A stretch of 64,000 bases of DNA. It comes from Cryobacterium tagatosivorans. GTDB lineage: Bacteria > Actinomycetota > Actinomycetes > Actinomycetales > Microbacteriaceae. Shown here in pieces: positions 25,230 to 57,987 of the stretch (the first letter of the stretch is position 1; every line of letters starts with the position of its first letter). The position numbers were made by a program, and so were the translations under genes. Under the pieces are notes generated by a model. The model was given only the letters and a program-made list of their open reading frames with translations, was not told where the DNA came from and did no database searches. The DNA lies in NCBI RefSeq assembly GCF_004402215.1, contig NZ_SOEZ01000024.1, forward strand, positions 1,679-65,678. The letters run 5' to 3'.

Positions 25230-25242
25230 CCCAAGGAAACTC

Positions 25243-29234: not shown

Positions 29235-29247
29235 GGAGGCAACGACA

Positions 29248-31973: not shown

Positions 31974-32348
31974 ATGAGCACCACAATGCCGATGCGAGTG
32001 GACGGCGACCTCTTTGAGGCCGCGAAATCAGTTGGCGCTGTTGCAAGCCGGAGTGCTGCGCAGCAGATCAGCCATTGGGCCAGGATCGGGCGCGAGCTCG
32101 AGGCGTCGCCTGGCACAAGCCCCCGCGATGTCCAGCGCGTGCTCGCGGGCGAGGCCGGCTACAAGTACGACAACCTCGGCGAACGTGACCAGGCGGTGGT
32201 GCGGGCAAGCTGGGATGAGCAGCTGGACGAGCGACGGGCCAAGCTGAATCTCGCCACCGAGTTCGCGAAATCCGGACGCTCATGGAGCGAAGCGGACGCG
32301 CAGGGCCATCTGGTCAAACGTCACCACGCTCAGCAAGACGACGCCTAA
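31974..32348 (+). CDS. ParD-like antitoxin
   Basis: The product is 124 aa. The N-terminus MSTTMPMRVDGDLFEAAKSV followed by GAVASRSAAQQISHWARIGRELE matches the ParD-like ribbon-helix-helix antitoxins that often accompany zeta-type kinases in actinobacteria. The remaining residues are charged and helical, suited to toxin wrapping. It starts just after the 17-bp palindrome and is followed by the toxin gene 3 bp downstream. Confidence 0.7.
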   Translation: MSTTMPMRVDGDLFEAAKSVGAVASRSAAQQISHWARIGRELEASPGTSPRDVQRVLAGEAGYKYDNLGERDQAVVRASWDEQLDERRAKLNLATEFAKSGRSWSEADAQGHLVKRHHAQQDDA

Positions 32349-32351
32349 CAG

Positions 32352-39013: not shown

Positions 39014-39688
39014 TCACGACCAATCGGACGCTTCGACGATCTCACGCACGTCGTCGACATCGCCTCCATCACGGAGCCATTGGATCGGGGTCTTGCGCCC
39101 TCGGGCGACCAGGTCCCGCTGAGGTGTGGCCATGAATCCCGCGGCGCTTTGCCAATGCCAGCGCGGGGTGATGAGTCCGATAATCTGAGTCAGCCCTAGA
39201 AGGAGCTTCGAGGGAGACCCCACGTCGAATTGCCAAGCCGGGAAGCGGAGCCGGCCAGAAATTTCGATCGCGTAGAGCCGTCCGTCGGCAACTGCATCAG
39301 TGACGTCGCTTTCGTCCCAACCGAGAAAGCCTGTGACATCCTCCACGGACATGGTCGCGAAAAGGGCAAGCAACCAAGCTTCGGTTGTGCTGAGCTGCAA
39401 ACTCCCTCGGTCTACGGCTGCCGAAGTCTCGGCCCACTCGTCAGCGCTGAATGCGCCCGACTCGATCAGGAAGCGGACTTCGTTATCTGACAGCTTGTCC
39501 AGTGAGATGGGCTTCATCGCGCGCAGCATGTCCGTGAGTGCTTCCAGGAAGTATTCCGGGTCGTTCGCCAATCGAGCCACGGCCTCTGCGAGGCGCCGGA
39601 CGGCGTCCTCCGAGACATGTATCGCCCCCGGTTCCGAGCCAGTTCCGCCAGGGGAATCGGCTGGTGCGGGGGAGTGCGATTCCATCAT
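39014..39688 (-). CDS. Hypothetical protein with MbcA/ParS-like C-terminal motif
   Basis: The product is 224 aa from the ATG pair at 39685-39688; a start at 39751 is possible. The middle has ALFATMSVEDVTGFLGWDES (a helix-turn-helix-like block), and the C-terminus GRKTPIQWLRDGGDVDDVRE resembles the conserved end of Xre/MbcA/ParS antitoxins ('GKTPLEWL..G.DP..V'). It could be an antitoxin-like regulator for the downstream metallophosphoesterase, though the pair lacks the usual RES toxin. The 39689-40008 gap upstream shows nothing clear. Confidence 0.5.
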   Translation of the reverse strand: MMESHSPAPADSPGGTGSEPGAIHVSEDAVRRLAEAVARLANDPEYFLEALTDMLRAMKPISLDKLSDNEVRFLIESGAFSADEWAETSAAVDRGSLQLSTTEAWLLALFATMSVEDVTGFLGWDESDVTDAVADGRLYAIEISGRLRFPAWQFDVGSPSKLLLGLTQIIGLITPRWHWQSAAGFMATPQRDLVARGRKTPIQWLRDGGDVDDVREIVEASDWS

Positions 39689-40008: not shown

Positions 40009-41868
40009 TCAACCGCCCAGAGCCGGACCCTCGTGGCTCTGCTCATCCTCGACCTCGACGAGCTCAGCACGGAGGCGCTGTAACCTCTTCCGCTCTGCAG
40101 CGGTGTGCGGGTTCAGCCTCGGGGCTGCGGGAGGGGCCTCGACGCCGGTAATGGCCGCGCCGACCGTCGTCTCGGTCTCCAGTGTGCCCTCGGAAGCCTC
40201 CTCGGGCTTGTGGGCGTTCATGGCGGCTTCTCGGGTGGCCTGGGCGCGCATCCGGAGATCGGCGAGTGACACCCCGAACAGTGGCTGGCGCTCGGGCGCT
40301 GTTTGGGGAGCTGCTTCTGCCTGCTGCGTCTGCTGCTCGCGCTCGGCAGCCTTCGCCGCCTCTTTGTTCCGGTGGTACTCCGCGATCATCTTGTCGCTCT
40401 CGGCCTTGGCCGGCGCGATGGCCTCTTCCAGCGCCGCCTCTACCTGCTCTCTCGACGCCGGCTTCACAGCAGGAGCGGGCTGCCGCGGCTCAGGGGCAAT
40501 CCCGGGCTGAGCCTGCGCCGTGCCGTCGGGGGAGGAGATCGCAGTGGCCCGTGCTCGCCGGGTCCGCTGTCGAGCATCCTTCTCACGGGTCGCGTTCGCA
40601 AGGCGCGCCAGCTCGCGGAAGTCACCAAGGCGATGGGCCTCGGTCGCCGCGTCGAAGTCCTCGATAATCGCGGGGAGGAAGTCGGCTGCCGCCTGGTCCT
40701 CGGCCTGCGCTACGCGCTCCTCGCGGGCGAGTCGCTCGACGACGGCCTGAGCATCGGCCAGCTCCTGAGCTGTCGGCACAGGAAGAGGCTTTGGGGCGCC
40801 CGCACGCTGCAGCTCGGGGCGCCGCTCACGCTCCTGGCCAGAGGCATTGTCCTCGAGCTGCTGGATGGCGCTGTCGAAGGCATAGTGGTCGCCGAGAGTT
40901 GTTCCGCGGACTGGCGCCTTCATGTCGTCCAGTCGGTAGGACACTGCGTGCTTCTCGCCGGGCTTACCGGCGCGACTGACGCGGTAGTTCACGGTCACCT
41001 CGTGCTCGGACATGACCTCGACGAACCCCTCGAGGTCAACAGAGCGAGGGTCGTCCATCGAGGCTTCGAAGGCGACGCGGATGATGTCGTGGTTCGAGAT
41101 CTCACCCTTGGTAGCCATGCGTCGGTCCCGAGTGCGGCGCTTCTCGGCTGTCTGTTCCGCCACCGAGGGGAGCTTCTGTTCGACGCCGTACTCGGCGCCG
41201 TGCTGAGCGATGAACTCGTCAGCGCGCTCGCGCAGCCGAGCGATGTCCGTGAGCGCGCCGGACATCTTCCTGCCGGGCTCCCACACCTGGCCGTCGACCT
41301 CCATCCGCTCGGCGACGACGGCGTTCTGCACACAGTGCACATGGAACACCGCTCTGCCAAGTGATCCGTCGAGTGTTGCCGTACCCAAACCGTCAGCCTG
41401 GCCAACGAGCTTCATTTGAACGCCCGGGTAGAGCCGGGTCATCATCACTGTGACGAACTCAAATGCCCGTCGCACCTGCTCGGGATCGTCGGGGTTCACC
41501 TCGTCGAGGCCGAAGCTGACGATCACGTGCACCGCCTGGATCTCGTCGACGTAGCCGTCGCCCTCGCGTCGGACATGCGTTGCCGCGGTGCTGCCTGCTG
41601 CGACCGCCCAGTACTTTCGCCCGTTCGGGCGCGCGCGCCGGATATGCGTCGCGACCTCGCCAGGCTCGGGCAGCTCGTACTTCGCGGGGACCTTCCGCTT
41701 CGCACTCTGCTTGCCGTGTACACGGCGCACCGCGGCGAACTCCCGCTCGGCGGTGGGAACTCGGCAGCGAATTCCTTCGGAGTACAGAACGCGTGGCTCA
41801 GTGCCCCCGGCTTTCTCTTTCTCGGTGTATCGCAGCAGGCGCGCGGCGACCGCCGTCTTACCGATCAC
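40009..41868 (-). CDS. Relaxase/mobilization nuclease (MOB_P-like)
   Basis: The product is 619 aa. The N-terminal third is relaxase-like: HVIVSFGLDEVNPDDPEQVR, then GQADGLGTATLDGSLGRAVF followed by HVHCVQNAVV, where HVH at about 176-178 fits motif III metal-binding histidines of MobA/VirD2-type relaxases. The catalytic Tyr is probably in the early RLLRYTEK segment. The C-terminal half is a long Ala/Glu/Gln-rich region, probably coiled coil. It starts within the stop of the MobC-like gene and the likely oriT is 20 bp above that gene, so this is the DNA-transfer module. Confidence 0.75.
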   Translation of the reverse strand: MIGKTAVAARLLRYTEKEKAGGTEPRVLYSEGIRCRVPTAEREFAAVRRVHGKQSAKRKVPAKYELPEPGEVATHIRRARPNGRKYWAVAAGSTAATHVRREGDGYVDEIQAVHVIVSFGLDEVNPDDPEQVRRAFEFVTVMMTRLYPGVQMKLVGQADGLGTATLDGSLGRAVFHVHCVQNAVVAERMEVDGQVWEPGRKMSGALTDIARLRERADEFIAQHGAEYGVEQKLPSVAEQTAEKRRTRDRRMATKGEISNHDIIRVAFEASMDDPRSVDLEGFVEVMSEHEVTVNYRVSRAGKPGEKHAVSYRLDDMKAPVRGTTLGDHYAFDSAIQQLEDNASGQERERRPELQRAGAPKPLPVPTAQELADAQAVVERLAREERVAQAEDQAAADFLPAIIEDFDAATEAHRLGDFRELARLANATREKDARQRTRRARATAISSPDGTAQAQPGIAPEPRQPAPAVKPASREQVEAALEEAIAPAKAESDKMIAEYHRNKEAAKAAEREQQTQQAEAAPQTAPERQPLFGVSLADLRMRAQATREAAMNAHKPEEASEGTLETETTVGAAITGVEAPPAAPRLNPHTAAERKRLQRLRAELVEVEDEQSHEGPALGG

Positions 41869-42440
41869 TACGACTGGAATGGCAGCACCGCCAGTACCTT
41901 CGCGTCGCGCTCGGCATCCGCCGTCATCTGTCTCCGGATCTCTACCAAGGCCCGCTCGACGCCGAGCAGGGCGTCGGTGTCGACCTTGCCCGTCGCGTTG
42001 GCGACCTTCGCTATTTGGTTCCAGTTGTGGCCAATGAAGTGGAGCTCTCGCGTGCGCTCGTTGTAGCTCGTCGTGAGGTCTCGGACTGCGTCGCGGACCT
42101 CCGTGAGCAGCGCCTCGTCAACGACGGCCACGGGACGTTGAGCCTTTGCGGACCGATACGACTCATCGCGTAAAGTCGCCGCGATGTGCCTGATCGCTTC
42201 GCGGATTGCGTCGGGTCCCGACGCTGCGCCGAGCTCGGCTTCAACGAACGCCAGGTCATCTGCGTCGTCGGCTGTCATCCTCACGGTGATGACGACGTCC
42301 TTGACCGGGCGGGCCGAGCTGCGCTCGTCAGCCCTCTCGCTCGCGGCTGCGCCGCGGCTCACGGCAGAGGACTCGGCGACCACCTGAGGGGTGTCCGCCT
42401 CGGCCAGCGTCGGGCGCTCCCAGCTCTTCGCTACGCTCAT
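41868..42440 (-). CDS. MobC-like mobilization accessory protein
   Basis: The product is 190 aa. After a disordered N-terminus it has VITVRMTADDADDLAFVEAE (ribbon-helix-helix-like) and the C-terminal ELHFIGHNWNQIAKVANATG, which matches the MobC 'GNNLNQIA+.-N' signature. MobC proteins bind oriT and help the relaxase open DNA. It lies directly beside the 25-bp inverted repeat and overlaps the relaxase gene by 1 nt. Confidence 0.68.
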   Translation of the reverse strand: MSVAKSWERPTLAEADTPQVVAESSAVSRGAAASERADERSSARPVKDVVITVRMTADDADDLAFVEAELGAASGPDAIREAIRHIAATLRDESYRSAKAQRPVAVVDEALLTEVRDAVRDLTTSYNERTRELHFIGHNWNQIAKVANATGKVDTDALLGVERALVEIRRQMTADAERDAKVLAVLPFQS

Positions 42441-43647: not shown

Positions 43648-44535
43648 TCACCCGTTGGCGCGCAACATGTCAGGAGCCTGCTTGCGCGCATCCGCGAGAC
43701 GACGCAACACGGTCCGGTCGGTCAGGGGCTTTCCTGACTCCTCGAACTGCTGCGCCAGAGTTTCCTTTGTCACGTCGTGCCCTGTCGTGGCGCGCGACAC
43801 GATCCAATTGACCTGTCCTGCCCGGTCATTCGGGATTGACTCAACTGCGTGCAAGCGCGTCACCTGATCCACAGGCGTGACAAGCTCTGGCGCACGAGTG
43901 GCCGGCGCGACAGTGACCGCGTCAGGCGTGACAGTGACCGCGTCAGGCGCGACAACCTCTGCCATGCCCGTATCGAGGACGGTGACCGCAGCGACAGTGT
44001 CCACGACCGCCGTGTCATCCACCACTGTCAAGCTGACAGGCACAGATGTCATTGGCACGACAGCGTCCCCGGTAGACACTAGCTCTGCGGCAGGCTCTTC
44101 TGCCGGTGTCAGAAGGCGCACGAGCATCTCGCTGGAGAGCAATAGCCCAACCGGCGGGATTGCACCTACGAAGATCGCGAACGCCATCGAGATGCCCTGG
44201 GCCTGGTCGTACACGGCTGCTGTGTGCACACCATTTCCAACCACCGACACGGTGGCGAATCCCGACAATGTGACCCATGGCCACGCTGTCGCACGGCGTG
44301 AACGACCGCGCCACGCGAAGATCACGAGCATCGCAGTGACGATGCTGCCATCCACGATCAACGGCCACGCCCACGCAATATCGGCTGGAACGCCTGAGCG
44401 GAACGCGAGGTCACGCAACACCTCAAACGACAGGACGAAGGCGAGCATGGAAATACCGGCCACCAAAACCGTGGCCACAGCGGTCAGCCAACGGGAGACG
44501 CGAACCGGAGCTGATGCCCCTCTCGTTGTATTCAT
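43648..44535 (-). CDS. DUF2637 membrane protein (plasmid transfer/spread type)
   Basis: The product is 295 aa. Four hydrophobic helices in the first 130 residues include AWAWPLIVDGSIVTAMLVIF, the DUF2637 hallmark, and FATVSVVGNGVHTAA. The tail is a long Val/Thr-rich repeat (TVTPDAVTVAPA) followed by a helix-turn-helix-like end (TGHDVTKETLAQQFEESGKP then LTDRTVLRRLADA). Such proteins sit beside replication genes in actinobacterial plasmids and ICEs. It overlaps the polymerase gene by 4 bp. Confidence 0.75.
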   Translation of the reverse strand: MNTTRGASAPVRVSRWLTAVATVLVAGISMLAFVLSFEVLRDLAFRSGVPADIAWAWPLIVDGSIVTAMLVIFAWRGRSRRATAWPWVTLSGFATVSVVGNGVHTAAVYDQAQGISMAFAIFVGAIPPVGLLLSSEMLVRLLTPAEEPAAELVSTGDAVVPMTSVPVSLTVVDDTAVVDTVAAVTVLDTGMAEVVAPDAVTVTPDAVTVAPATRAPELVTPVDQVTRLHAVESIPNDRAGQVNWIVSRATTGHDVTKETLAQQFEESGKPLTDRTVLRRLADARKQAPDMLRANG

Positions 44536-46382
44536 GCTGCTCTTCCTTCCTGGCTTAGGTTGTCAGTGGTGTGCCACGTGCAGCCCACATAGGTGCACGT
44601 CATAAGTTCTCGATGGTCGCGGGCGACTTCGGGCCATCCCTTCTTCTCGCTGCGGTAGCAATCAGCCCAGTCGTGCCCTCGATCAGACCTGTCGGCCAGA
44701 ACAAGAACCGAGGCCGCATCCGGCGCGATCCGATAGGCGAATTGAAGTGCGTCCAGCACAGCCGCCTCCGCCTCATCGGCACGGTGCTCAGGGACGGAGA
44801 GCACAATCTCGTCGTGGACGATGGCCCGCAAGCCTGGCAACAACCACTCAGGCAGGCGCAAAACGCCCTCCATCATCAGATCGCGTGCTGTGCCCTGCCC
44901 GATGTGCGCAGGCGCCTGGGTGTATTCCTTGCCCGGCTGAACCCGCATCCGGCGACCAAACGCATTGGCGATTACCTGACGGGAGGCATCAGCGCGTATC
45001 CACTTCTTGAACGCAGCCAAGCCTGGAAACTTCAGCTCCAGCGTCGCGAGTTGCCTCTCAGCGTCGGCAAGGCTGTATCCGGCACTGGCCGCCAGCGCCG
45101 CTGGCCCCATGCCATAGGTTGTTGCGTGCGTGATCGCCTTGGCGTCACCGCGCCGAGGGTGATGGCCGGCGCCACGGACCCAACCGTCTTCACCGAATAC
45201 CGCCGCTGCCATCTCGTCGTGCATGTCCTTGCCCGGCGCGAGCGCCGCGATGTAGTTCTCGTCCTGGCAGTGCATCGCCATTGCACGAGCATCGATCTGC
45301 GACAGATCCGCACCGATGAGCACGTGCCCGACGTCGGGCAAGAGCATCGCTCGCTCGCAGATGTTGCCACGATCACGCTTGCCCATGACCGACAGTCCGG
45401 GGTCGGTAATGCTGATCCGTCCCGTGGCCTGTACCGCCGCAACACCGGGGTGCACACGCCCGTCTGAGCTTGAGTTCTCCAACAGCGTCTGTGCCATCGA
45501 CCGCTCCCCGTTGAAAGTTCGCAGTGTCTGGCAGAGCTCCACCAAGCCCACGTTTTCCGGGTGCTGGGTCTCAAGCTGGGTTAGCGCCTCCTTACCCGTC
45601 GCCAGCGCACCCGTTGGTGTCCGAGGTGGCGTGACGCCGAGGTCGATGAACGCCTTCTCAAGAGCCAAGATGCCAGCCGTCGTCGTGTGCGGCTTTTTGC
45701 CCGCCAGCGGCAGACCGTGCACGGTATACAACCGCTTCTTCAGAGTCTCAACACGAGCAGCTCGCTCGGCGATCAATCGCTGCACAAGATCCAGGTCAAC
45801 ACGGAAACCGTGCTTCGCAATGTGACCCAGTCTCCACATCACTTGGTGTTCTCGCCGCAGATAGTCATCGACAACCAAGAGTTTGGACAGCTCGCGCACT
45901 AGCTCAACGTCCTGCACGAGGTACCGCACGTAGTCCGGATGATCCACGGGGATCTTGTCGTACCCCTCGAACTCACAGGCTAGTGTCTTGAGCGCGGAGC
46001 CGCAGTCTCCCGCGGGCTTCCCGCCAAGTTCCAAGCGCTTGGCAAGGGCATCCAAGCTGTACCGGCGCGCGTCAACCTTCCCCGAAAGCGGTGGATCGTT
46101 TTGTCGGGCAGCCAGCAGTGTGTCCATCACCCGGTCCTCGCGCACTAGACGCGCCAGGTCGAGGCCGTAGTAAAGCTCCAAAGCGGGTAGATCGAACCCG
46201 AGCACGTTGTGCCCGACGACGAGGTCGGCCTTCTCGATCATCTCGACCACCATTGTGATGTCCGTGGTCGTGACCACTGGGGAATCGCCAACGGCGAAGC
46301 CGGCGAGCCGAACGAAGCCGGGGCCGTAGTCCCACAGCCGATCTGCGTCGGCGGTTGCAAGGTCCAAGTGAAGGGTGCTCAC
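44532..46382 (-). CDS. Family A DNA polymerase (plasmid type, exonuclease motif I altered)
   Basis: The product is 616 aa. The polymerase core is complete: motif A GADLSQIDARAMAM, motif B RGDAKAITHATTYGMG, and motif C IVHDEIVLSVP. The 3'-5' exonuclease part keeps Exo II (VGHNVLGFDLPALE) and Exo III (YVRYLVQD), but Exo I reads LDLATAD, with Ala where the catalytic Glu of DxE is expected, so proofreading is probably lost. There is no 5' nuclease domain. The length is short compared with the 850-930 aa of chromosomal PolA. It overlaps the primase/helicase gene by 4 bp and is the replicative polymerase of the element. Confidence 0.87.
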   Translation of the reverse strand: MSTLHLDLATADADRLWDYGPGFVRLAGFAVGDSPVVTTTDITMVVEMIEKADLVVGHNVLGFDLPALELYYGLDLARLVREDRVMDTLLAARQNDPPLSGKVDARRYSLDALAKRLELGGKPAGDCGSALKTLACEFEGYDKIPVDHPDYVRYLVQDVELVRELSKLLVVDDYLRREHQVMWRLGHIAKHGFRVDLDLVQRLIAERAARVETLKKRLYTVHGLPLAGKKPHTTTAGILALEKAFIDLGVTPPRTPTGALATGKEALTQLETQHPENVGLVELCQTLRTFNGERSMAQTLLENSSSDGRVHPGVAAVQATGRISITDPGLSVMGKRDRGNICERAMLLPDVGHVLIGADLSQIDARAMAMHCQDENYIAALAPGKDMHDEMAAAVFGEDGWVRGAGHHPRRGDAKAITHATTYGMGPAALAASAGYSLADAERQLATLELKFPGLAAFKKWIRADASRQVIANAFGRRMRVQPGKEYTQAPAHIGQGTARDLMMEGVLRLPEWLLPGLRAIVHDEIVLSVPEHRADEAEAAVLDALQFAYRIAPDAASVLVLADRSDRGHDWADCYRSEKKGWPEVARDHRELMTCTYVGCTWHTTDNLSQEGRAA

Positions 46383-49042
46383 GACGCGTCACCGCCAAGC
46401 TCTGCGATAGTCTTCCCGCTCATCGGAGGCATCGCCCGAGCGACCCGCTGCGTGAAGCCCTTGCGACCCGTGAACTCGATGAGCTCGCCGGGCGCAGCGC
46501 CGGCGGCAGGACGCGGGCCTGCCGGTGTAGGGGCCGGAGCGGGAGCCGGGGCAGGGGCCGGGGCAGGGGCCGGGGCAGGGGCCGGGGGAGAAGATGGGGT
46601 AGGTAGCGGGGTGACACCGGCGGGAAGCTGTTCGATGACGTACGCCTTACCCCCCGCATGTAGCTTCCCGTCCTCGCGGATGCGGATTCCTTCATACCAG
46701 CGAGGGTGCTGGCCGTAATACATAGAGAGCTTGCGTGCATCCAGTTCATCCCACGCCTTGCCGTACGGCGGGGATGCATCCGGGTCGGCCTTCGCCTGAG
46801 CGAGCACCTCGGAAGCGCCGAATCGTGTGCCGACGGGGAACCGGCCCGCGACCCACACCCAGTGCTCACCGTTGTCCACGGCCTCGCTGTCGGCGGTCTC
46901 TCTGACCGTGAGCACGGTCGACAGGAAGCCGTTGATCCCGGCAAGATGCAGGATGCCGCCGACGACCCGCTGCCACTCCGTGAAGGACTTGAATCCGAAC
47001 GGCTTCGGCGCTTCGGGTTGGTTTCTGGCGTACCAGGCCCGCACGAGTATCAGTACGGCGCGTAGGAGCTCTGCACGGTGCTCCGGCACCCACGAGTCCA
47101 GGTCGTGCCTGAAATTATCCCGCGTCTCGAGGTCGGTGCGGTCGGAGGCCAGGCGGCAGGTGTACACGCGGCGGATCATGTCGCCGGGGATCTGAACGTT
47201 GTTGCCGAGCCCGTACCAGCTCGCCATGTTCGGCAAGCTCAGGACCTCAGACGACCCGAGCTTGCGCCCCTCATATATCTCCGAGGTGAGCACAGCGCCC
47301 AATGAGTTCGAATCGAGACGTGATGTGCCGTCCTTATCCTGGACCTCGTCCAGATTGATCGTGTCTGCGCTGACCCGCAGCTTGGCGATGATTCGCTTGT
47401 CCATTTCCTCGTCCGACTTAGGCGTTGTCTGGATGGACGCGGGCACGCCAAACGCGACGCGGTGAATGACGTCGAGGCAGCCGCCTTTGCCGACACCGCG
47501 ATGAATTCCGTCGAAGACGAGCATGGGCACCTTGCCCACGTTCGCCCGGATGACGGGTGTGATCAGGCCGGCGATGGCGTGCGTTTGATCCGCCTCAGAC
47601 GCAAACGCCCACCCATCGCGCCCGCCCACACCATCCATCGCGAAAAGCTCGTCGCGGATGAGCGCCACCGCGGCAGCGATGTCCGCGTTGGTTGGATGCT
47701 CGGGCACGACGATGCCCTGGACATCGGGAGTCAAGTCTAGGAAGACGCCGTTTTCCGGGTTGTAGCCCGGGGTGGTGCTGACAGCGCCGTCGGTCAGGAC
47801 GAGGGGGGAGCGAGTGATCCCAGACAGCCATGGCAACCGGTCGCTGTGGTCCGCGACTAGGTCGACCAGCGCGTCAGCCAGCCCGGCGGGCAGAATCGAC
47901 CCGTTCGGCGTGGTGTACGGGTACACGACGTCAAGTAGCTCGCGACGCAGCGCACTCCGAGTGAGTGCGCTGGCCTTCAGCACGCCATTCTGATTCTTTC
48001 CGTCTCGGCTACGGCGCACGCGGACTAACTCGCCGTCGCGCTGGAACACCCGCACGCCGCCGCTGCGTTGGATCAGTGTATCGAGCAGGTCCAGGGACAC
48101 CTGCCGCATGTCTCGACTGACGTCAACGCCGACGCGGCCGTCGAATATGTTGCCGGTTGTTGCGAGGTCTGCGGTCTCGGTGGCTGCCTTGTCCCGGATC
48201 GCCTTGTGCATCTGGTCTCGTTGCCGCTGGGGCAGATCGGCAGGTCGCGACTTGGCGTTCGTAACCCAGGCTTGCATCAGCTCGTGACGGGCATCGTCAC
48301 TGGACTGCCGGGCGAGCAGGTCGTCGAGCCCATCCTTGTTGGCTCCGGGCAGCCGAGCGAACTTGACGCTCGCAGCGCCGTACCCCTCGCATGCCTCGCC
48401 GAGCGCCGCAGCGCCGTCGTAGACGCGGATGTTCGTCTTCGCGTCCGCGTCGGGGATGATCACTACTGGGCATCCCCGGACGACGGCCAGGAACGGCGTG
48501 GGGGAGCCGGACCCGTCAACGCCATCACCAGCGACTCGCCAAGCCCAGATGCCGGCAATGCGGTAGATCGACCAGGTGTCAGGGGCCCAAGCGAGTGCAG
48601 CCAGAGCCTGCTTGACCCCCTCGACGATGAGGACGACCTCGGGGTCCTTCACGGCGCGAAGCTCCGGCAGTGTCGGAGGGTTGCTCTCCTTGCTAGGGGA
48701 CACGTACTTGCGGAACAGCCCTTCGCGCGTGATCACGCTGTCTGGGGCCGGCTTTACCTGCCCGGTTTCGGATCCGTCCGGGTGCGTCATCGGGAAAACA
48801 AGCGTCGGGAACACGCCGTCGCCACGATTGGCGATCCACTGTGCATACTTGGGCAGGTCATCGCGCACGTAGGCGCTGCGGACGCCTTGCTCGGCCGCCA
48901 CGGACGCTGGGATCGCGCTGTTGCGAAGCTCCTGCGCGTGCTCCCGAGTCAGATTCAGGTAGTTGTCGAGGGGCGAGTCGACATCGGTGGCAGAGTCACC
49001 AAATCCGGCGCGATTCTCGTCGTTTCCGTCTACATTGGTCAT
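46379..49042 (-). CDS. Replication protein: DUF3854/TOPRIM-like primase region plus P-loop helicase
   Basis: The product is 887 aa. Residues about 110-260 form a TOPRIM-like DUF3854 domain (EVVLIVEGVKQALAALAW, VVIIPDADAK). The central region holds a P-loop FDGIHRGVGKGG and the following NLDEVQDKDGTSRLD (Walker B-like), suggesting a superfamily-3-like helicase. A (Pro-Ala)n linker (46530-46610) separates a short C-terminal tail. The gene is followed with 4-bp overlap by the polymerase, and together they form a self-replication module. It resembles primase-helicase fusions of actinobacterial ICEs and phages. Confidence 0.75.
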   Translation of the reverse strand: MTNVDGNDENRAGFGDSATDVDSPLDNYLNLTREHAQELRNSAIPASVAAEQGVRSAYVRDDLPKYAQWIANRGDGVFPTLVFPMTHPDGSETGQVKPAPDSVITREGLFRKYVSPSKESNPPTLPELRAVKDPEVVLIVEGVKQALAALAWAPDTWSIYRIAGIWAWRVAGDGVDGSGSPTPFLAVVRGCPVVIIPDADAKTNIRVYDGAAALGEACEGYGAASVKFARLPGANKDGLDDLLARQSSDDARHELMQAWVTNAKSRPADLPQRQRDQMHKAIRDKAATETADLATTGNIFDGRVGVDVSRDMRQVSLDLLDTLIQRSGGVRVFQRDGELVRVRRSRDGKNQNGVLKASALTRSALRRELLDVVYPYTTPNGSILPAGLADALVDLVADHSDRLPWLSGITRSPLVLTDGAVSTTPGYNPENGVFLDLTPDVQGIVVPEHPTNADIAAAVALIRDELFAMDGVGGRDGWAFASEADQTHAIAGLITPVIRANVGKVPMLVFDGIHRGVGKGGCLDVIHRVAFGVPASIQTTPKSDEEMDKRIIAKLRVSADTINLDEVQDKDGTSRLDSNSLGAVLTSEIYEGRKLGSSEVLSLPNMASWYGLGNNVQIPGDMIRRVYTCRLASDRTDLETRDNFRHDLDSWVPEHRAELLRAVLILVRAWYARNQPEAPKPFGFKSFTEWQRVVGGILHLAGINGFLSTVLTVRETADSEAVDNGEHWVWVAGRFPVGTRFGASEVLAQAKADPDASPPYGKAWDELDARKLSMYYGQHPRWYEGIRIREDGKLHAGGKAYVIEQLPAGVTPLPTPSSPPAPAPAPAPAPAPAPAPAPTPAGPRPAAGAAPGELIEFTGRKGFTQRVARAMPPMSGKTIAELGGDAS

Positions 49043-49842: not shown

Positions 49843-50013
49843 TCACTTGTGACTACCGCCGCCCAAGAAGAGGCCGCGCAGTCGTAGCGACTGCTGGGAA
49901 GAGAGAGCAGGGGCAGAAGCGGCCTCAGCGCGCGCCCATGCGCGAATCGCCTCAAGTTCCGTCAGCGGCGGCGGCGGCGACGTCTCGGTTCGCTCAAGGA
50001 CCGTGGCGGTCAT
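49843..50013 (-). CDS. Small hypothetical protein, 56 aa, coupled to excisionase-like gene
   Basis: The frame begins MTATVLERTETSPPPPLTEL at the ATG at 50013, overlapping the excisionase-like stop by 4 bp, and ends LRLRGLFLGGGSHK. Such short proteins after the Xis-like gene are frequent in actinobacterial ICEs, where the final RLR-L-GG pattern recurs. Function unknown. Confidence 0.6.
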   Translation of the reverse strand: MTATVLERTETSPPPPLTELEAIRAWARAEAASAPALSSQQSLRLRGLFLGGGSHK

Positions 50014-50234
50014 CGGGTGCCCCGCGAGGGGGCGACGAGCGCCTCCAGGTAGGCATCGAGGTCGGTAGGAAGGATCCGCCAGCGCCCGCCCACCTTGTAG
50101 GCAGGCAGCCGTCCGGTGCGGATATCGTCGCGAAGGACGAAGCTCGATCGCCCGCTTGTGTCCTCCGCCTGCGGTACGGTGAGCGCGCAACGCAGGTCGT
50201 CGTATGTGGGTGTCGATGCATCACTGGGTATCAC
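50010..50234 (-). CDS. xis: Excisionase/AlpA-like helix-turn-helix protein
   Basis: The product is 74 aa. The core FVLRDDIRTGRLPAYKVGGR followed by WRILPTDLDAYLEAL is the winged-helix pattern of excisionase-like proteins, DNA-bending factors that direct integrases to excision. It sits between the replication origin region and the serine integrase. The start has TTAGGAG upstream. The first residues (YDDLRCALTVPQAED) replace the usual 'VEEAA..LGVS' turn. Confidence 0.75.
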   Translation of the reverse strand: MIPSDASTPTYDDLRCALTVPQAEDTSGRSSFVLRDDIRTGRLPAYKVGGRWRILPTDLDAYLEALVAPSRGTR

Positions 50235-50402: not shown

Positions 50403-50975
50403 GTGCCCATTACTCCAGAGACCGAACTGCGGGAGCGCAACTGGCACGTCAGTGCGCCACACGGGCTGATCGACGTTCACCCAGGTATTGCGATACCGCG
50501 CCTCGTGCGCGCCGGGGGGCCGCTGAGCAGTGTGCCGTCAGCCGAAGCGGGTGGCGCGGCCCTCGGCGAGGGGTTCCAGCTCGAGATTGAAGCTGTGTAC
50601 AGTCGGCCGCTCGGCCACTACACACTGCGCTCGTTTTCCCTCGTTGCGCCAGAGGACGAGGAAGTGACAGGAGTGCTGCTGCGCACGGTCACACCCCTCG
50701 GCGTCATGCGCTGGATACTGCCGCGTACATTTCAGCTCGACGCCTCGGCGCTCAGTGTTGCCGTCGTGGACTTCGTCGCACCCGAGCTCAAGCCATATCG
50801 GAAGGCGTCTAACGGGGGATCGGTGAGCATCGATCTGACGGATGTTGGAACTGTATATCGCCTCGCGGCGATTGTGCGGTATCCGCCAGCGAAGGCGGTG
50901 GCCGAAACGTTTTGTCTCCAGGCCCGCACCGCCACCAATTGGATCGCACGGGCCCGGGCCGCCGGCCTGACCTGA
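50403..50975 (+). CDS. Hypothetical protein with C-terminal helix-turn-helix
   Basis: The product is 190 aa from a GTG. The N-terminal 130 residues are beta-rich without a recognised family (DUF6214-like at most). The C-terminal VYRLAAIVRYPPAKAVAETF followed by CLQARTATNWIARARAAGL matches the short helix-turn-helix common at the end of actinobacterial island proteins. It is divergent from the excisionase-like gene and convergent with the integrase. Confidence 0.55.
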   Translation: MPITPETELRERNWHVSAPHGLIDVHPGIAIPRLVRAGGPLSSVPSAEAGGAALGEGFQLEIEAVYSRPLGHYTLRSFSLVAPEDEEVTGVLLRTVTPLGVMRWILPRTFQLDASALSVAVVDFVAPELKPYRKASNGGSVSIDLTDVGTVYRLAAIVRYPPAKAVAETFCLQARTATNWIARARAAGLT

Positions 50976-51065: not shown

Positions 51066-52646
51066 CTAACGCCAGTCGTAGGTGACTCTGCCAGGGTTTG
51101 GGCCCTTTCGCCCCACCGCCTCCGGCGGTACGCGGTGAATCCTTGGCACGATCAGTTCCCTGATCACGTGGCGCTGCCACACGATGTCACCGGACTCTTC
51201 CCGTTCAGCCCACATCTCGCGCACCCGTCCGGACTGAGCCAGCTCTAGCACGAGGGGGTCAGCTGCTGCCAACAATTCGAGTTTCTTCCGTGCACCTTCG
51301 ATCTTGGGTTCCACAAGATCGCGCTGTTCTGTGAGCATCCGCAGGTCGCGGCGACGCTCCGCCTCCATCGCAACCTGGTCGAGCCACTCCTGGTGACCTC
51401 GGATCTCCTCCAGAACCGCATTGCGCTCTGCATTGACGTCTTCGTCCTGTTCGCCCAACGTTGCCAGGAAATCAGGGCGCTCCAAGCGAGCCTGCACGAG
51501 CTCCGTGATGATCAGGTCAAGGTGCTCCTCGCGCATCGAAACGTGGAAGCCGGGGCGCCCCGGCACGCCGATGCACTGATATGCGTGGTAGCGAGGTCGG
51601 GGGAGTCGCTCGCCGTTCTCGTCATGCTTCTGAACCCCGCCGTTCTGCCGGCCGACACGCGTGCGGGCGCCGCACTCTCCACAGAGCGCGATGCCGGAGA
51701 GTAGATGCTTGGCCGGCCAGTTGTTGGACTTAAAGCCCCGTGAGCCCATAGCAAGCTGAAGTTTCTCCCAAGCCTCCGGGTTGATCAGGGGAGGCCAGAT
51801 GCCTTCGTATGTCGCGGTTTCGCCTTCCGTGGGGTTGTGCACGCGCTTGCCCGTGTATACCGGCATGGTCAACATCTGCTTCACTGCTGGGGCAGTCCAA
51901 CCCAAGTTTTTGCGGTGTTCCTCGCGCACCGGCCGTCGAGGCGGGACGTTTTTCTCGTTTAGCGTGGCTGCGATGTCATAGTACGAGCGGCCCGCGAGAA
52001 CCATTGCTGCTGCTTCTTTGACGACCCAAGCTTGGTCAGGGTGTTCAACCACCTTCTCGAGGACCCGCAGGCCGTTGGGCTTCACCGAGTAGACGCGCTG
52101 ATAGCCATACACGTTCTTCCCGTGAGGGCGGCCGCCCTTTGCAGCCGCGCGCATGTCACGTTGAAGGCGTTCGCTGGTCTTGTCGGACTCGTATTCCGCG
52201 TCTGAGGCGTCCTCGCGTAGGCTGCGACGGTCTCGGGAGTTACTCGGGTCGTACACGCGATTGTGCGTGAGAACCCAAATCTGCACTCCGTGGTCGCGGC
52301 AGAGATCAATGAGATCAATCCATTCTCCCGTCCTGCGAGAACCTCGGCTCGACTCCCAGATCGCCAGCAGATTGGCTTCGAATTTGCCCTCTTCGAGATC
52401 TGCGATTAGTTGCGCGAAGCCCTCTCGCCGCCTGGTCGCGTAGCGACTGGCACTGCGGTTGTCATCGCGGTAGTAGCTGGAGTGGACTTGCCAGCCGCGC
52501 CTATGCGCTTCTGCGGTGATTTCGTCGTGTTGTTGATCGGGGCTCTTACCTGTGCCCGAGCGGTCGAGTGAGACGCGCAGATACTCCCGCACGATTAGGT
52601 TTTGGTCATCCAGCACGTTACTGACCCTATGGGTTGACTGTGTCAT
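51066..52646 (-). CDS. int: Large serine recombinase (integrase)
   Basis: The product is 526 aa. The N-terminal resolvase domain has REYLRVSLDRSGTGKSPDQQ with the catalytic Ser26, then SSRGSRRTGEWIDLIDLCRD. A recombinase domain follows (GKNVYGYQRVY...), then a zinc-ribbon (GIALCGECGARTRVG ... YQCIG) and a long coiled coil (residues about 405-470). This is a phiC31-class large serine integrase, which recombines short attP and attB sites without tRNA targets. It lies 2.6 kb from the truncated comEC, its probable target. Confidence 0.92.
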   Translation of the reverse strand: MTQSTHRVSNVLDDQNLIVREYLRVSLDRSGTGKSPDQQHDEITAEAHRRGWQVHSSYYRDDNRSASRYATRRREGFAQLIADLEEGKFEANLLAIWESSRGSRRTGEWIDLIDLCRDHGVQIWVLTHNRVYDPSNSRDRRSLREDASDAEYESDKTSERLQRDMRAAAKGGRPHGKNVYGYQRVYSVKPNGLRVLEKVVEHPDQAWVVKEAAAMVLAGRSYYDIAATLNEKNVPPRRPVREEHRKNLGWTAPAVKQMLTMPVYTGKRVHNPTEGETATYEGIWPPLINPEAWEKLQLAMGSRGFKSNNWPAKHLLSGIALCGECGARTRVGRQNGGVQKHDENGERLPRPRYHAYQCIGVPGRPGFHVSMREEHLDLIITELVQARLERPDFLATLGEQDEDVNAERNAVLEEIRGHQEWLDQVAMEAERRRDLRMLTEQRDLVEPKIEGARKKLELLAAADPLVLELAQSGRVREMWAEREESGDIVWQRHVIRELIVPRIHRVPPEAVGRKGPNPGRVTYDWR

Positions 52647-52702
52647 GCGGTAACTGTGCCGAGGTGGGATCGGCCCGAGTTGACCTCGATACGCTTGGGG
52701 GC

Positions 52703-53560
52703 GTGTCCTCCTCGTATCGCACCCTCCCTCAGGTGAAGTTTGCTCGGTTTCGTGAGCTTGAAAAGCGGAGGGTTGACTCGAGTAACAGTATTTGGTCGAT
52801 CATCGTCGGATCGAAGATGGCTGCTTCTACGCTGCAACTCACCAAGGGTTCGAGTCACACGCTGGCCGAGATGTTTCCATCACTTGAGCATGTCGCGCGA
52901 TTTGATATGCGATCGGACAAAGCTGCGGCGCTCTTGGGCGAAGCAGAGATAGAGATGTGCACCATGGGCATGGCCCATGCAATCGCTCTCCACGAAGACT
53001 TCGTGAAGAGTTGCTTGGAAATGCTGATCCCCTCGGGGAAATTCTCGAAGACGAAGCTGGCGAACGCGAAGACCGTCAACGCGCACGAGTATTTCGCCGA
53101 GGCCAGTGGGCACACGTTTGACGTGGATGCGCTAGCGCTTTTCCATGTCACCCGCCTCACGCGGAACTGTCACATTCACGCAGGTGGGCTGGTCGACACC
53201 AGGCTAGTCAAGGCGTTCAATTGCATGACCCCGGGCCAACAATCCCTTTGGTCAAACCTGACCGGTGAGTCAATTGCGGTGCCGGCAGTCGGCTCTCGAG
53301 CCCTGGTGGGGGTTGGCGGTCTGGTGGCCACGTTGGCTATAGGCAAACGCCTTGCGTACGACGTCAACCTGGGTTTGCAAACTGCGATCTCGCGAGAGAG
53401 CTGGGCTGACATTGCTGCAGATGAGTACTTCTCCGTTGGATCCAAACGCCCGAAGGACCCATCGTCACTTCGCGCGCTTAGAGGGTACTTGAAAGGTGGA
53501 TTTGCCCCACTTGCTCTCACTGATGATGAGCTGCAGTCTGCGATCGACCGACGAAAGTAA
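52703..53560 (+). CDS. HEPN-like hypothetical protein (possible RNase)
   Basis: The product is 285 aa from the GTG at 52703; a longer frame (52634) would overlap the integrase start. TACGCT seven bases before the GTG suggests leaderless expression. The predicted protein is mostly helical and contains RLTRNCHIHAGG, where Arg154-Asn-x-x-x-His159 is the R-N-xxx-H motif of HEPN ribonucleases. HEPN proteins cut RNA in many defence and toxin systems. No other domain is recognised. Its stop codon lies within the 5' half of the tRNA-like sequence on the other strand. Confidence 0.55.
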   Translation: MSSSYRTLPQVKFARFRELEKRRVDSSNSIWSIIVGSKMAASTLQLTKGSSHTLAEMFPSLEHVARFDMRSDKAAALLGEAEIEMCTMGMAHAIALHEDFVKSCLEMLIPSGKFSKTKLANAKTVNAHEYFAEASGHTFDVDALALFHVTRLTRNCHIHAGGLVDTRLVKAFNCMTPGQQSLWSNLTGESIAVPAVGSRALVGVGGLVATLAIGKRLAYDVNLGLQTAISRESWADIAADEYFSVGSKRPKDPSSLRALRGYLKGGFAPLALTDDELQSAIDRRK

Positions 53561-53634
53561 AAGTGGGATGCTCTGCCATTGAGCTACAGCGCCTCGTGTG
53601 GCGTCGCTAGGGATCGAACCTAGATCTCCCAACT
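53557..53634 (-). tRNA. Circularly permuted tRNA-like sequence (3' half before 5' half)
   Basis: On the minus strand a 3' half comes first (from about 53633 to 53599): TGGGA, a 3-nt variable part, T-arm CTAGG-TTCGATC-CCTAG, acceptor CGACGCC and A. A 5-nt linker (53598-53594) leads to a 5' half (53593-53558): acceptor GGCGCTG, TA, D-arm GCTC-AATGGCA-GAGC, A, TCCCA and loop CTTTTA. If joined the normal way, the acceptor arm pairs 6 of 7 (one wobble, one mismatch) and the anticodon stem TCCCA/TGGGA pairs 5 of 5. The loop would give anticodon UUU (Lys). It may instead be two unrelated tRNA scraps, but the matching stems argue against that. Confidence 0.5.
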
Positions 53635-54048
53635 CTGTGAAGCGCCCCGGATGTGAATCGGTAGACCAATTGCCCGCGCTTCTAACAAGAGATTACAACA
53701 TGAAGTAGGGCTGTCACATGCTGCTTCAGCGTTCTGTCGTTCGATGCTCTTCGGCCATGCCCAATCGCGTCGCCGAGCGCGGTTGGACGAGCGATACACC
53801 CGCGCTGCCGACGAGTCGACGCAAGCCTGGGAATTGCCGGATCGTTGACGTTAGCCACTGTCTCTCCAACACGTTGGCAGTGAGCTCTGGAGATCAGTGC
53901 CTCTCGCGCCCTGGGCGAATGCCGGTGGTAGTGCCACTGGATGATAGGCACTCAGGAATGACCTGTGCCGGAGGACGTGGCCATTGAATGTAGGTCTCGC
54001 ATGGAATCGCTCATATGTATGTCATCAGCGTCTGAGATGCTTGGGGGC

Positions 54049-54969
54049 ATGACCTTACTTGACGACGTGATCAGCCAAGCATCAGATGGTGAGGCCACAG
54101 CGATGTTGCGCAAGCTCATGATCGTGGCCCACCGTCTCAAGGCAGCTCCGTTGCTCACGTGGGTGAAGAACGAACTGAATGGTTACGAGTCAAAGGACGA
54201 CCTTCCGTCATACCGCGGACCGATGCACGTCAATGTCCAAGCCCTTATCACCGGGCCCATGGGCTCCAAAGGCACGAACACACTTAGCTCACACGGCGTG
54301 CCTGATGGATTCGAAGGCCTGTTTAAGATCTCCTTCTTCGACCCGCTGGCCGGCATTCAGTCATTGGCCGAGGCATCGGACAATGTTGGCGTGCCTTGGG
54401 ATCCAGCAGTGGTTGGGATGTACAACGGATGGATCGACGCGGGGAAGGTGCCTTTCTTGGAGTACTGGGGCGTCTACAGCGCGACCAAGACCGTACCGCC
54501 ATCCACGCTCAAGGGCATCGTCGATATCGTGCGCACCAAAGCACTTGAGATGGCGCTGGATCTCCAATCCGAGTTTCCCAATGCCGGTGAGGTCGGCGGC
54601 CCCACCGTCGAAGAGCCCGCGGTCGAGGCGGCGGTTACGCATATCACGAACAACATCTACGGCTCTGTGACTGGCCTAGCTCAAGGAAACGAAGTTCGGC
54701 AGAAGGTGACAGTAAAGGTCGGTGATCTGGCCGGCGCACTGACTGCGGCGAAGTCGTTCTTGGCCGACGAAGCGGTCACCGCGCTGTCGAAAATCCTGAC
54801 GGAATCGGGCGACGATGACGAGAAGCGAGGCCGACTCGCTAGCTTTGCACAGAGCGTCAAGGCAGGAGCGGTGGCGCTTGCCGGCGGCGTCGCCGGCAAT
54901 ATCGCGGCTGATGGCGTCGTGGAGTTGGCGAACCAGTTCTTCGGCTGGGCATCCGGCGCAGTTAGCTAA
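54049..54969 (+). CDS. AbiTii-domain protein (abortive infection type)
   Basis: The product is 306 aa from the ATG at 54049; an in-frame ATG at 54001 is possible. The N-terminal LLDDVISQASDGEATAMLRK then LMIVAHRLKAAPLLTWVKNELNGY matches the AbiTii domain found in phage-defence proteins. The middle may bind a ligand, followed by ITNNIYGSVTGLAQGNEVRQ, a 'NIYG..' element seen in such proteins. The end (AGAVALAGGVAGNIAADGVV) is hydrophobic and may touch membrane. It lies at the element's right edge beside the HEPN-like gene. Confidence 0.6.
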   Translation: MTLLDDVISQASDGEATAMLRKLMIVAHRLKAAPLLTWVKNELNGYESKDDLPSYRGPMHVNVQALITGPMGSKGTNTLSSHGVPDGFEGLFKISFFDPLAGIQSLAEASDNVGVPWDPAVVGMYNGWIDAGKVPFLEYWGVYSATKTVPPSTLKGIVDIVRTKALEMALDLQSEFPNAGEVGGPTVEEPAVEAAVTHITNNIYGSVTGLAQGNEVRQKVTVKVGDLAGALTAAKSFLADEAVTALSKILTESGDDDEKRGRLASFAQSVKAGAVALAGGVAGNIAADGVVELANQFFGWASGAVS

Positions 54970-55244
54970 GCAGGCGTGGTCTTCGTGGGAGGCAAGATGT
55001 TTCACCTCACGTGACATCGAGTTGCTCGAAATCGGCCCCGACTCGAGGATCTCCTTTGCATTGTCGATGCCGCCCACAACGAGCGTTCCAGTGGCGGTCT
55101 CGTAGAACCTGCACCCGGCGACGAGCACATGCCAAAGACCCCAGCGACGGCGACCGTTGACCGGCCCTGCACCACGCCAACGTCCGCCAATTCTTGGGCG
55201 ACTCGATCCGCCTCACAACTAGTCACCCACCTCTCTTATCATCT
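54970..55244. other. Right element junction
   Basis: Clear comEC coding starts about 55245 (MSGANCAVV). The 275 bp before it show no intact gene; on the minus strand FYETATGTLVVGGIDNAKEI (about 55110-55020) looks like a protein remnant I cannot name. The integrase attachment site should be near 55215-55250, but the crossover cannot be fixed because the left end of the element is not in the window. Confidence 0.5.
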
Positions 55245-56837
55245 ATGTCTGGGGCCAACTGCGCTGTCGTGATCGCGTCGATCATGCTGCTCGGCGGCGC
55301 GCTTCGCCTGCGCCGGGGCCTCCGGATCGGCCTGTCCCTGGCCGTGCTCGCCGGCTTCGTGACTCTCGTGACCCCGGAGCCGAGCGTGCTCCGGGCCGGG
55401 GTGATGGCGTCCGTCGTGCTGCTCTCGATCGGCATCGGGCGGCCCGGCGGCGGCGTGCCGGCCCTCGCCCTGGTCGTGATCGTGCTTCTGGCCGCCGACC
55501 CCTGGCTGTCCCGGAATTACGGCTTCGCGCTGTCGGTGCTGGCGACGGCAGGCCTCCTGCTGCTCGCCGGCCCGCTGACCCGCGCGCTGTCGCGCTGGAT
55601 GCCTTCCGGCCTGGCCGCCCTCGTCTCTATCCCGCTCGCCGCGCAGCTCGCCTGCCAGCCCGTGCTCGTGCTCCTCAGCCCCAGCCTGCCGCTCTACGGC
55701 GTGCCGGCCAACCTGCTGGCCGCCCCCGCCGCGCCGCTGGCGACGGTCGTGGGGCTCCTCGGCTGCCTGCTCCTGCCCGGGGTTCCCTGGCTCGCCGGGG
55801 CATTCCTGGGCGCGGCCTGGCTGCCGGCCGCGTGGATCGCGGCGGTCGCACGAACGACGGCCGCCCTGCCGGGGAGCCGGCTGCCGTGGCTGGGCGGGGC
55901 CGTGGGCCTGGCCGGCGTCGTGCTGCTCACCCTGCTCTTCCTGTTCCTCATCCTGCCGCGAGCCGCGGCTCCGGGCGGGTGGCGGCGAACCGCGGCGCTG
56001 GCCGTGCTGCTGGGCTCCCTCGGCGCGTATTCCGGGTCGCTCGTCGGCACGGGGGTCGGACGGGCCGCGGCCTTCCCCGACGACTGGCAGATCGCCGCCT
56101 GCGACATCGGCCAGGGCGATGCCGTGGTCGTGCGCGACCGGGACCGGTATGCGCTCGTCGACGTCGGGCCCGATCCGAAACCTATGGCCGAGTGCCTCCG
56201 GACCCTCGGCATCGACCGGATCGACCTGCTCGTGCTGACCCACTACGACCTGGACCACATCGGCGGGATCGACGCCGTCCTCGGCCGGGTCGACACCGCC
56301 CTGGTCGGGATCCCCGAGAACGACCAGGACCGGCGCCTGCACGAGCGGCTCGCCGAGGGCGGCGCGCTGGTGCGGCAATCCGCCCGGGGCGACACCGGCG
56401 TCCTCGGCGGGCTCCGCTGGGAGATCCTCTGGCCGGTCAGGGGCTCGCCGGTGATGCAGGTCGGCAACCCGGGAAGCGTGACGATCGGCTTCGACGGCCG
56501 CGGCATCCGGTCGCTGTTCCTCGGCGATCTCGGCGAGGAAGCCCAGGATGCCATGTGGCGCGCCTCGAAGCCGGCGCCGCTGGACGTGGTGAAGGTCGCC
56601 CACCACGGCTCGGCAGACCAGAGTGCCCGGCTGTACGCCCGGCTCCGCGCCACGGTCGGCCTGATCGGGGTGGGAGCGGACAACGGCTACGGGCACCCGA
56701 CGGATGCGCTGCTGGACATCCTGGCCGGAGTCGGCACGACCGCCTTCAGAACCGATCTGCGCGGGATGGTGGTGGTCGCACCCGCGGCCGAGCGCGGCGG
56801 CGCGCTCACCGTGTGGACCGAGAAGATGCCGCCCTAG
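55245..56837 (+). pseudogene. comEC: Competence protein ComEC, 5' part missing
   Basis: The frame (530 aa) begins at SGANCAVVIASIMLLGGALR, the conserved start of the ComEC competence domain (normally 'HL-AVSGANCA' some 250 residues into the protein). It continues through the multi-helix channel and the C-terminal metallo-beta-lactamase-like part: CDIGQGDAVVVRD, LTHYDLDHIGGID, FLGDLGEEAQ and VAHHGSADQ. The N-terminal OB-like region and first helices are absent, replaced by mobile DNA. ComEC moves single-stranded DNA through the membrane, so natural transformation is probably lost. Confidence 0.88.
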
Positions 56838-56937: not shown

Positions 56938-57987
56938 GTGGCCGTTCGAACCACCGCAGCAGGAGCACAGAGGCCGGCCTCGAAGTCCGCCTCGAAGTCC
57001 GCGGCGATCCCGCAGCTGGCCTGGCACCAGGTCCGTCCGGCCCCGATCCTGCTCGTGTCGGGCACGGAAACCTTCCTGGCCGAACGCGCGATCCGGCAGC
57101 TTCGCGACTTCCTCAAGCTCGAGGACCCGCAACTCGAGGTCAGCGACGTGCAGGCCGATAGCTACGCGCCCGGCGAGATCCTCACCCTCGCCAGCCCGTC
57201 GCTGTTCGGCGAGCCACGGCTGATCCGGGTGAGCAACGTCGAGAAGTGCAGCGATACGTTCCTCACCGAGGCCCTGGACTACCTCGAGAACCCCGCCGAA
57301 GACACCTACCTGGTCCTCCGGCACGGCGGGGGAGTGCGCGGCAAGAAGCTCCTCGACACCATCCGCAGCGGCGTCGGCGGCGGCATCGAGATCGTCTGCG
57401 CCGAACTCAAGAAGGACACCGACAAGTACGACTTCGCCTCGGCCGAATTCAAGACCGCGGGAAAACGCGTCACCGCCAGCGCCCTGCGCGCCCTCGTCTC
57501 GGCGTTCTCCGACGACCTGGCTGAACTGTCGGCCGCCTGCCAGCAACTCATCTCCGACTCGAGCGCCGAGGTCACCGAGGTGACCGTCGACCGGTACTAC
57601 GGCGGCCGGGTCGAGGCCAACGCGTTCAAGGTGGCCGATTCCGCCATCGCCGGGCGCCACGGCGAGGCGCTGGTCACGCTCCGGCACGCGCTGTCCTCCG
57701 GCGCCGATCCCGTGCCCATCGTGGCCGCCTTCGCCATGAAGATCCGCACCATGGCCAGGCTCTTCGGCGTCCGGGGCGGTTCCGGCCAGCTCGCCTCGCA
57801 GTTCGGGCTCGCGCCCTGGCAGGTCGAGCGCGCCCAGCGGGACCTCCGCGGCTGGAGCGACGAGGGCCTCGCCCGCTGCATCAGCATGCTCGCCGAGACG
57901 GATGCCAACGTGAAGGGCGGCGGGCGCGACCCCGTGTTCGCGCTCGAGCGCCTGATCGGCGTGATCGCCCGGCGCGGCGAAGGCTGA
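56938..57987 (+). CDS. holA: DNA polymerase III delta subunit
   Basis: The product is 349 aa from the GTG at 56938 with AAGGGAA upstream. The delta opening PAPILLVSGTETFLAERAIR, then GEPRLIRVSNVEKC, YLVLRHGGGVRGKKLLDTIR and C-terminal LFGVRGGSGQLASQFGLAPW are typical of actinobacterial HolA. It opens the sliding clamp as part of the clamp loader. It follows comEC as in most actinobacteria, which confirms that this is the original chromosomal context. Confidence 0.9.
   Translation: MAVRTTAAGAQRPASKSASKSAAIPQLAWHQVRPAPILLVSGTETFLAERAIRQLRDFLKLEDPQLEVSDVQADSYAPGEILTLASPSLFGEPRLIRVSNVEKCSDTFLTEALDYLENPAEDTYLVLRHGGGVRGKKLLDTIRSGVGGGIEIVCAELKKDTDKYDFASAEFKTAGKRVTASALRALVSAFSDDLAELSAACQQLISDSSAEVTEVTVDRYYGGRVEANAFKVADSAIAGRHGEALVTLRHALSSGADPVPIVAAFAMKIRTMARLFGVRGGSGQLASQFGLAPWQVERAQRDLRGWSDEGLARCISMLAETDANVKGGGRDPVFALERLIGVIARRGEG

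Follow-up and report, generated by a model that had tools for sequence, protein, structure and literature searches.

ComEC forms the channel for single-stranded DNA in transformation, and outside transformation comEC is dispensable. The closest described elements in this gene are Tn1207.3 (prophage Phi1207.3) and Phi10394.4 of Streptococcus pyogenes, which are transferable, carry serine recombinases and use a dinucleotide within comEC as target (PMC4260502). Prophages and islands have also been described in comYC, comFA, comK and comM; this convergent targeting was explained by intragenomic conflict, a model that predicts the targeting of competence genes (PMC4774983). Likewise, competence genes are enriched among the targets of large serine recombinases (PMC10083194). 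The accessible text of the former study does not name comEC among the disrupted genes, and the main text of the latter never mentions it. In the accessible parts of the literature, attacks on competence genes were met in streptococci, staphylococci, Listeria, Bacillus and Gammaproteobacteria. Here, we describe an element that splits comEC of a Cryobacterium strain.

The window, the whole stretch of 64,000 nucleotides analyzed here, corresponds to C70:1679-65678 of a draft genome (G000) of 3.78 Mb in 81 contigs. Its comEC reading frame (55194-56837) has no native start and is homologous to intact ComEC only from the SGANC motif onward, so the abrupt beginning noticed in the preliminary description was read correctly. 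The DNA match to the nearest relative, G056, begins at 55248. The 3' half of comEC extends over 55251-56837 (+) and is open throughout; an in-frame ATG at 55245 lies on the element side. It is followed in the core flank by holA (56938-57987, +, named by reading); C. shii and A. rhizosphaerae likewise have a holA homologue behind comEC. In G056, comEC and the downstream holA form one 1193-aa open frame (L058:333-3914, -). The 5' part of comEC was found outside the window, as had been predicted, on the separate contig C79 (38280-39242, -). There it adjoins comEA (C79:39239-39991) and leuS (C79:40153-42744), both named by reading. This part forms a 320-aa frame whose end reads ..SSLNHLPAVSG|DTVVMRDGY.., and C79:38655-39041 (-) matches the N-terminal ComEC domain PF13567 with an E-value of 2.8e-4, below the curated cut-off. 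Both halves terminate at the same Gly codon (..AVSG|ANC..), with a core GG at C79:38410-38411 and at window positions 55251-55252. Joining the flanks at this GG yields an 805-codon comEC without a stop, whose product is 86% identical (699/811 columns) to the uninterrupted ComEC of G056. In the whole genome the Competence domain PF03772 has a single match, the window comEC, and this profile search found no second copy. Two halves on two contigs, att junctions and an intact joined frame, with the missing 5' part present in the genome and no intact comEC found elsewhere, bear out the proposed insertion into comEC.

Serine integrases use a symmetrical attP around a dinucleotide. The attR site (55223-55252, +) consists of an attP left arm (55223-55250) and the core GG, and its arm forms an inverted repeat with the right arm of attL. 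Across the elements, attR arms have the form ..ACCCACCTC..ACTGTATCtGG and attL arms the form GGAGACACaG..GGGATGGGT. The core was set at GG from the end of comEC identity and from arm symmetry. In 8 elements the left arms and the reverse complements of the right arms agreed at 132/224 positions, compared to 62.7 +/- 6.5 for shuffled arms (0/20,000 reached 132; single-base shuffles only, with the arms aligned on a GG chosen partly for symmetry). This test leaves aside four Arthrobacter/Pseudarthrobacter elements, the Leucobacter element and a Microbacteriaceae MAG that has no left half. By eye, the Leucobacter arms are of the same kind; in three of the four Arthrobacter-type elements the arms are less alike, the Hiyo8 arm being nearer. 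Besides the GG core, attL and attR have little in common. A repeat of about 55215-55250 had been expected at the other end, but no long repeat is common to both ends and a search for such a copy would be fruitless, as is to be expected for a serine integrase with a 2-bp core.

The integrase gene is located at 51066-52616 (-). Its product has the layout of a large serine recombinase, with a Resolvase catalytic domain (PF00239) and a Recombinase domain (PF07508) above cut-off and a zinc ribbon (PF13408) just below its cut-off. The integrases of C. shii and C. luteum are 92% and 57% identical to it. A pattern-based scan with two peptide patterns in 84,980 species genomes gave 15 loci of this clade (clade A), 13 of them full length; the partial loci L081 and L082 were left out of the count. 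The full-length loci belong to Cryobacterium (2), Microbacterium (4), Arthrobacter (3), Pseudarthrobacter, Leucobacter, a Curtobacterium MAG and a Microbacteriaceae MAG. In 13/13 of these genomes comEC is cut at the same position, site A. Both halves were present in 12/13, the Microbacteriaceae MAG having the 3' half only. Measured on the G056 protein, the 5' match ends at residue 283-289 in 12 genomes and the 3' match starts at residue 276-279 in 13 genomes (297 in Hiyo8). The 3' half lies inside the fetched flank in 9/13 loci, up to ~5.1 kb from the integrase start. For 9 Microbacteriaceae loci, Leucobacter included, the right junction was read at the DNA level. Site, core, the concordance of integrase and target and the empty sites in relatives were directly observed. 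The preliminary description had missed that a whole integrase clade targets this site.

The two comEC halves lie on one sequence in Microbacterium sp. CBA3102 (complete chromosome), M. hydrocarbonoxydans P30, G247, G166 and G388, at distances of 95.4 kb, 42.2 kb, 46.7 kb, 39.3 kb and 46.0 kb, respectively. The distance is 194 kb in Pseudarthrobacter GA104, 227 kb in A. rhizosphaerae and ~298 kb, counted across the record start, in Arthrobacter Hiyo8; in these three the assignment is less sure because the integrase lies inside the span, away from the junction. In all four Arthrobacter/Pseudarthrobacter genomes comEC is outside the 8-kb integrase flanks (69 kb off in A. rhizosphaerae). Since comEC is distant in this group and the attL arm less alike in three of its four genomes, clade A may not have made the cut there. 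Clade A is faithful to site A in Microbacteriaceae, and probably also in Micrococcaceae. In M. oryzae (C11; L099, L108), two comEC 5' halves located ~6 kb apart on the same contig both end at the VSG codon, perhaps owing to a second insertion at the same site. A phage origin of clade A was considered and is unsupported: the pattern scan of viral_contigs gave no relative, and all 484 phage records compared with the window integrase were below 60% identity (best ten of 484, at most 32.7%). Plasmids provided no close relative either, as all 85 records were below 60% identity (best ten of 85, at most 28.7%).

Carriers and non-carriers were compared in an even draw of 398 Microbacteriaceae; the named-genome, Microbacteriaceae and Cryobacterium samples partly overlap. 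Five carriers were detected at E<=1e-90 (G000, G166, G247, G276 and G388, the match in G388 spanning 336/516 residues), and comEC was cut at site A in 5/5, compared to at least 2/393 non-carriers (Fisher p 2.6e-10, single-match genomes counted as uncut). Splits were judged by eye among the listed matches of genomes with at least two matches (45 plus G040 and G048); six genomes were without any comEC match. The two split non-carriers, G192 (C1:320939-336900, a 16-kb span) and G316, have comEC split near the site A residues without a clade-A integrase at E<=1e-90, and are a lower bound because single-match genomes were uninspected and matches listed only in part. Further comEC breaks, e.g. in G321 and G350, fall at other places in the gene or on the ends of contigs. 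Within the genus, the integrase was detected at E<=1e-60 in 3/57 Cryobacterium genomes (G000, C. shii and C. luteum), which are the three site-A genomes, and in 0/54 others. As all carriers examined are cut, no genome examined combines a clade-A integrase with an intact comEC.

In total, comEC is interrupted in 8/57 Cryobacterium genomes, at three sites. Site A is occupied in the three genomes just named. Site B, ~25 bases upstream of site A, is occupied in G002 (9.4 kb, G002:C9:537347-546710), G051 (8.6 kb) and G010 (two contigs), and its serine integrases have 23-27% identity to the window integrase. Relatives of the site-B integrases were found on viral contigs (18 loci), and the G051 element (L057:1-6796) codes for an HK97-type capsid protein. 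The elements of G051 and G002 are possibly capsid-bearing phage satellites of Cryobacterium. Site C, within the DIGQGD motif, is occupied in G045 (27 kb, L053-L054) and G066 (22 kb, L055-L056). By reading, these elements begin on the left with tyrosine-recombinase-like genes, and their cargo consists of restriction-type or KAP-type genes. Of three proteins scanned from the G045 element, one had a Pfam match (PF00589). G067, with comEC on two contigs whose pieces overlap at residues 392-399, was excluded from the count of interrupted genes. In the 48 other genomes, an open frame extends into the N-half and is at least 701 codons long, with an internal stop codon in G019. Besides clade A, two more element kinds interrupt comEC in other genomes of the genus.

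This convergence bears on the question of whether the elements gain anything from the target. The site might have been picked only because its sequence is conserved and the gene can be spared, so that impaired DNA uptake would be a by-product without advantage. In 33 comEC sequences of Cryobacterium, conservation over 30 bases is highest for segments starting at 1168-1172; these cover the DIGQGD motif at 1182, where site C lies, and site B reaches the 92nd conservation percentile. Such a choice by conservation suits sites B and C better than site A, which is unexceptional at the 75th percentile. Moreover, the same gene is struck by three recombinase kinds in one genus, and the enrichment of competence genes among serine-recombinase targets also speaks against a by-product. 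We regard this explanation as possible but somewhat doubtful, and favor an element that benefits from cutting comEC.

The DNA between the comEC halves amounts to 38.4 kb of C79 (C79:1-38411) and 56.9 kb of C70 (C70:1-56930, window 1-55252, running to the left end of the contig), and the element is therefore at least 95 kb in size, in agreement with the more than 55 kb of accessory DNA first estimated and with a left end outside the window. The two contig starts do not overlap, so that adjacency is unproved and further contigs possibly lie between them. The G+C content inside the element is 0.64 (C70) and 0.63 (C79), compared to 0.70 and 0.71 in the flanks read. In keeping with an integrative element, the locus encodes an integrase and is bordered by att sites, and relatives have the site unoccupied. 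A tRNA as target was rejected, as ARAGORN reported no tRNA in the window. With a draft genome that places the comEC halves on different contigs, an inversion or a chimeric contig might be thought to have split the gene, but this is highly improbable given matching att arms at both breakpoints and the same cut in five genomes with both halves on one sequence.

Sulfatase cargo occupies 8678-30228, with six sulfatases (PF00884), two formylglycine-generating (FGE) proteins (PF03781) and a TctA-type transporter (PF01970). These loci share a contig with attR and are found between attR and the contig end, which by position places them within the insertion; the sulfatase clusters are cargo of the comEC element, as had been suspected. 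Among the matches listed for 56 other Cryobacterium genomes, a long match to 11348-30228 occurs only in G021 (67-75% identity), where the counterpart is not at comEC. Positions 31986-32918, also within the element, encode a pair of a ParD-like antitoxin and a zeta-toxin-like kinase. Further to the right are an ImmR/ImmA-like regulator with XRE HTH and M78 peptidase parts (34591-35757, +, PADLOC RmrA models) and a 224-aa protein, function unassigned (39014-39688, -), which also occurs in two Microbacterium elements with 40% and 43% identity. The 619-aa product of 40009-41868 (-) is a candidate relaxase, as suggested by an H-x-H motif seen by eye; it had no match to any family or solved structure searched. 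It is followed by a MobC-like mobilisation protein (41868-42440, -, PF05713, E 2.9e-06), a DUF2637 protein (43648-44448, -, PF10935), a phage-like DNA polymerase A (44532-46382, -, PF00476, phrog_17) and a DUF3854 primase/helicase-like replication protein (46379-49042, -, PF12965 with E 2.2e-4, below cut-off, and phrog_16213). Next to the integrase are an HTH_17 (xis-like) protein (50010-50234, -, Pfam), found beside the integrase in three relatives with 58-99% identity, and a conserved 190-aa frame (50403-50975, +) with 92% identity in C. shii and 52% in Microbacterium CBA3102 and no Pfam match. No transfer apparatus of its own was recognized among the window and C79 proteins scanned, which cover part of the proteins. 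In the A. rhizosphaerae element, two large left-end proteins were considered as conjugation proteins, a reading rejected for lack of Pfam or NCBIfam support. Two sister Microbacterium elements have Mob_Pre relaxases, with a D5-type helicase in CBA3102, and share little with the window element beyond the integrase module and the 224-aa protein. Clade-A elements differ in backbone and cargo.

The C79 part is a mosaic, pieces of which occur at other places in relatives, and an IS-type fragment was recognized by reading at the contig end. Near attL, 2.5 kb (C79:35317-37846) are 98% identical to a segment of contig G056:C34 away from comEC, a match that points to recent movement between sites. The mosaic look would suit an old, immobile insertion, i.e. 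an island with a dead integrase. Yet the integrase, which is 92% identical to the C. shii enzyme, has an intact frame, comEC can be read without a stop once joined, and the symmetry of the att arms is kept, which makes an immobile relic unlikely. The element may still be mobile.

Between the integrase and attR lies a slot with a protein of unassigned function (52634-53560, +; no match in Pfam, PADLOC or NCBIfam) and an AbiTii-type abortive-infection gene (54103-54969, +; PF18864, E 3.8e-31; PADLOC AbiTii), the frame of which is open from 53965. The preliminary description had placed the integrase and the xis-like gene next to the junction. Pfam confirmed both genes, but the integrase is 2.6 kb off and the AbiTii-type gene lies between. 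The C. shii slot holds SIR2, HerA and an HNH protein, that of Microbacterium sp. CBA3102 holds Ppl, and that of P30 holds an EcoRI-type methylase together with a GmrSD/HNH-type protein. Including the window, defence-type genes were found in 4/4 slots read, a count that leaves out the slot of strain A20, the fifth one known. A slot is absent from C. luteum and four further loci, where the integrase abuts comEC. Inside the window slot, 53542-53648 (-) shows a weak match to YrlA, a Y RNA-like RNA (22.3 bits, gathering threshold 69, E 0.38); motifs resembling the T-arm and D-arm of tRNA are present there in permuted order.

We consider it very likely that the locus is a probably mobilizable element of at least 95 kb, integrated site-specifically into comEC, which likely shields itself there and whose defence genes may guard the host. 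The integrase would recombine the attP of the element with an attB across the conserved codons HLTAVSG|ANC; from the junctions read, the enzyme would exchange strands at the GG within the Gly codon. As ComEC is the transformation DNA channel, transformation of the cell should be impossible as long as the element is present, and precise excision would restore comEC. With comEC cut, the element would be safe from replacement through homologous recombination with imported empty-site DNA, and the slot genes beside the integrase may guard the host against competitors. Since other bacteria from soil and ice that have relatives of the integrase show comEC cut at this position as well, the element may gain from the loss of uptake by its host.

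A wider proposal, for which we see about even chances, is that mobile elements of Micrococcales are under selection to destroy ComEC and that at least three kinds have converged on it: clade-A islands, 9-kb satellite-like serine-integrase elements (one with a capsid gene) and tyrosine-recombinase-like elements. This would imply that natural transformation takes place in these bacteria and seriously endangers their integrated elements. Islands in comEC would then join two protections, as they could not be cured by transformation and hold a swap-in defence slot beside attR. Here, the conflict shows in Actinobacteria and concerns the DNA channel itself; one integrase clade uses one codon in several genera, and other recombinases strike the same gene. 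The curing-by-transformation hypothesis thereby becomes testable in a new phylum. In addition, the locus provides a matched set of serine integrase, attB and attP, and the slot beside attR is a place to seek defence genes.

Serine-recombinase elements in comEC are already known from streptococci, while the actinobacterial family is apparently unpublished: no report of it was found among the matches listed in the literature searched, most subscription journals lying outside. Elements of the Tn1207.3 type have a GA target, two tandem resolvases at the right end and phage structural genes (PMC4260502). In contrast, the element described here belongs to a different phylum, has a GG core and a single large serine integrase near attR without tandem resolvases, and no phage structural family was detected among the ten window proteins scanned against PHROGs; it is thus not of the Tn1207.3 type. 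Tn1207.1, a 7.2-kb resistance element discussed as imported via transformation, splits pneumococcal comEC as here, and no sequence exchanges were detected within that clade (PMC8321556). The most surprising aspect of our findings is that different kinds of element converge on a single gene within one genus. Repeated interruption of comEC in one taxon is also described for Piscirickettsia salmonis, in a report that recalls the streptococcal insertions (PMC12955456). There, transposable elements with transposases sit at non-identical positions and are accompanied by eroded gene remnants, whereas the actinobacterial elements use a fixed site and leave open half-frames.
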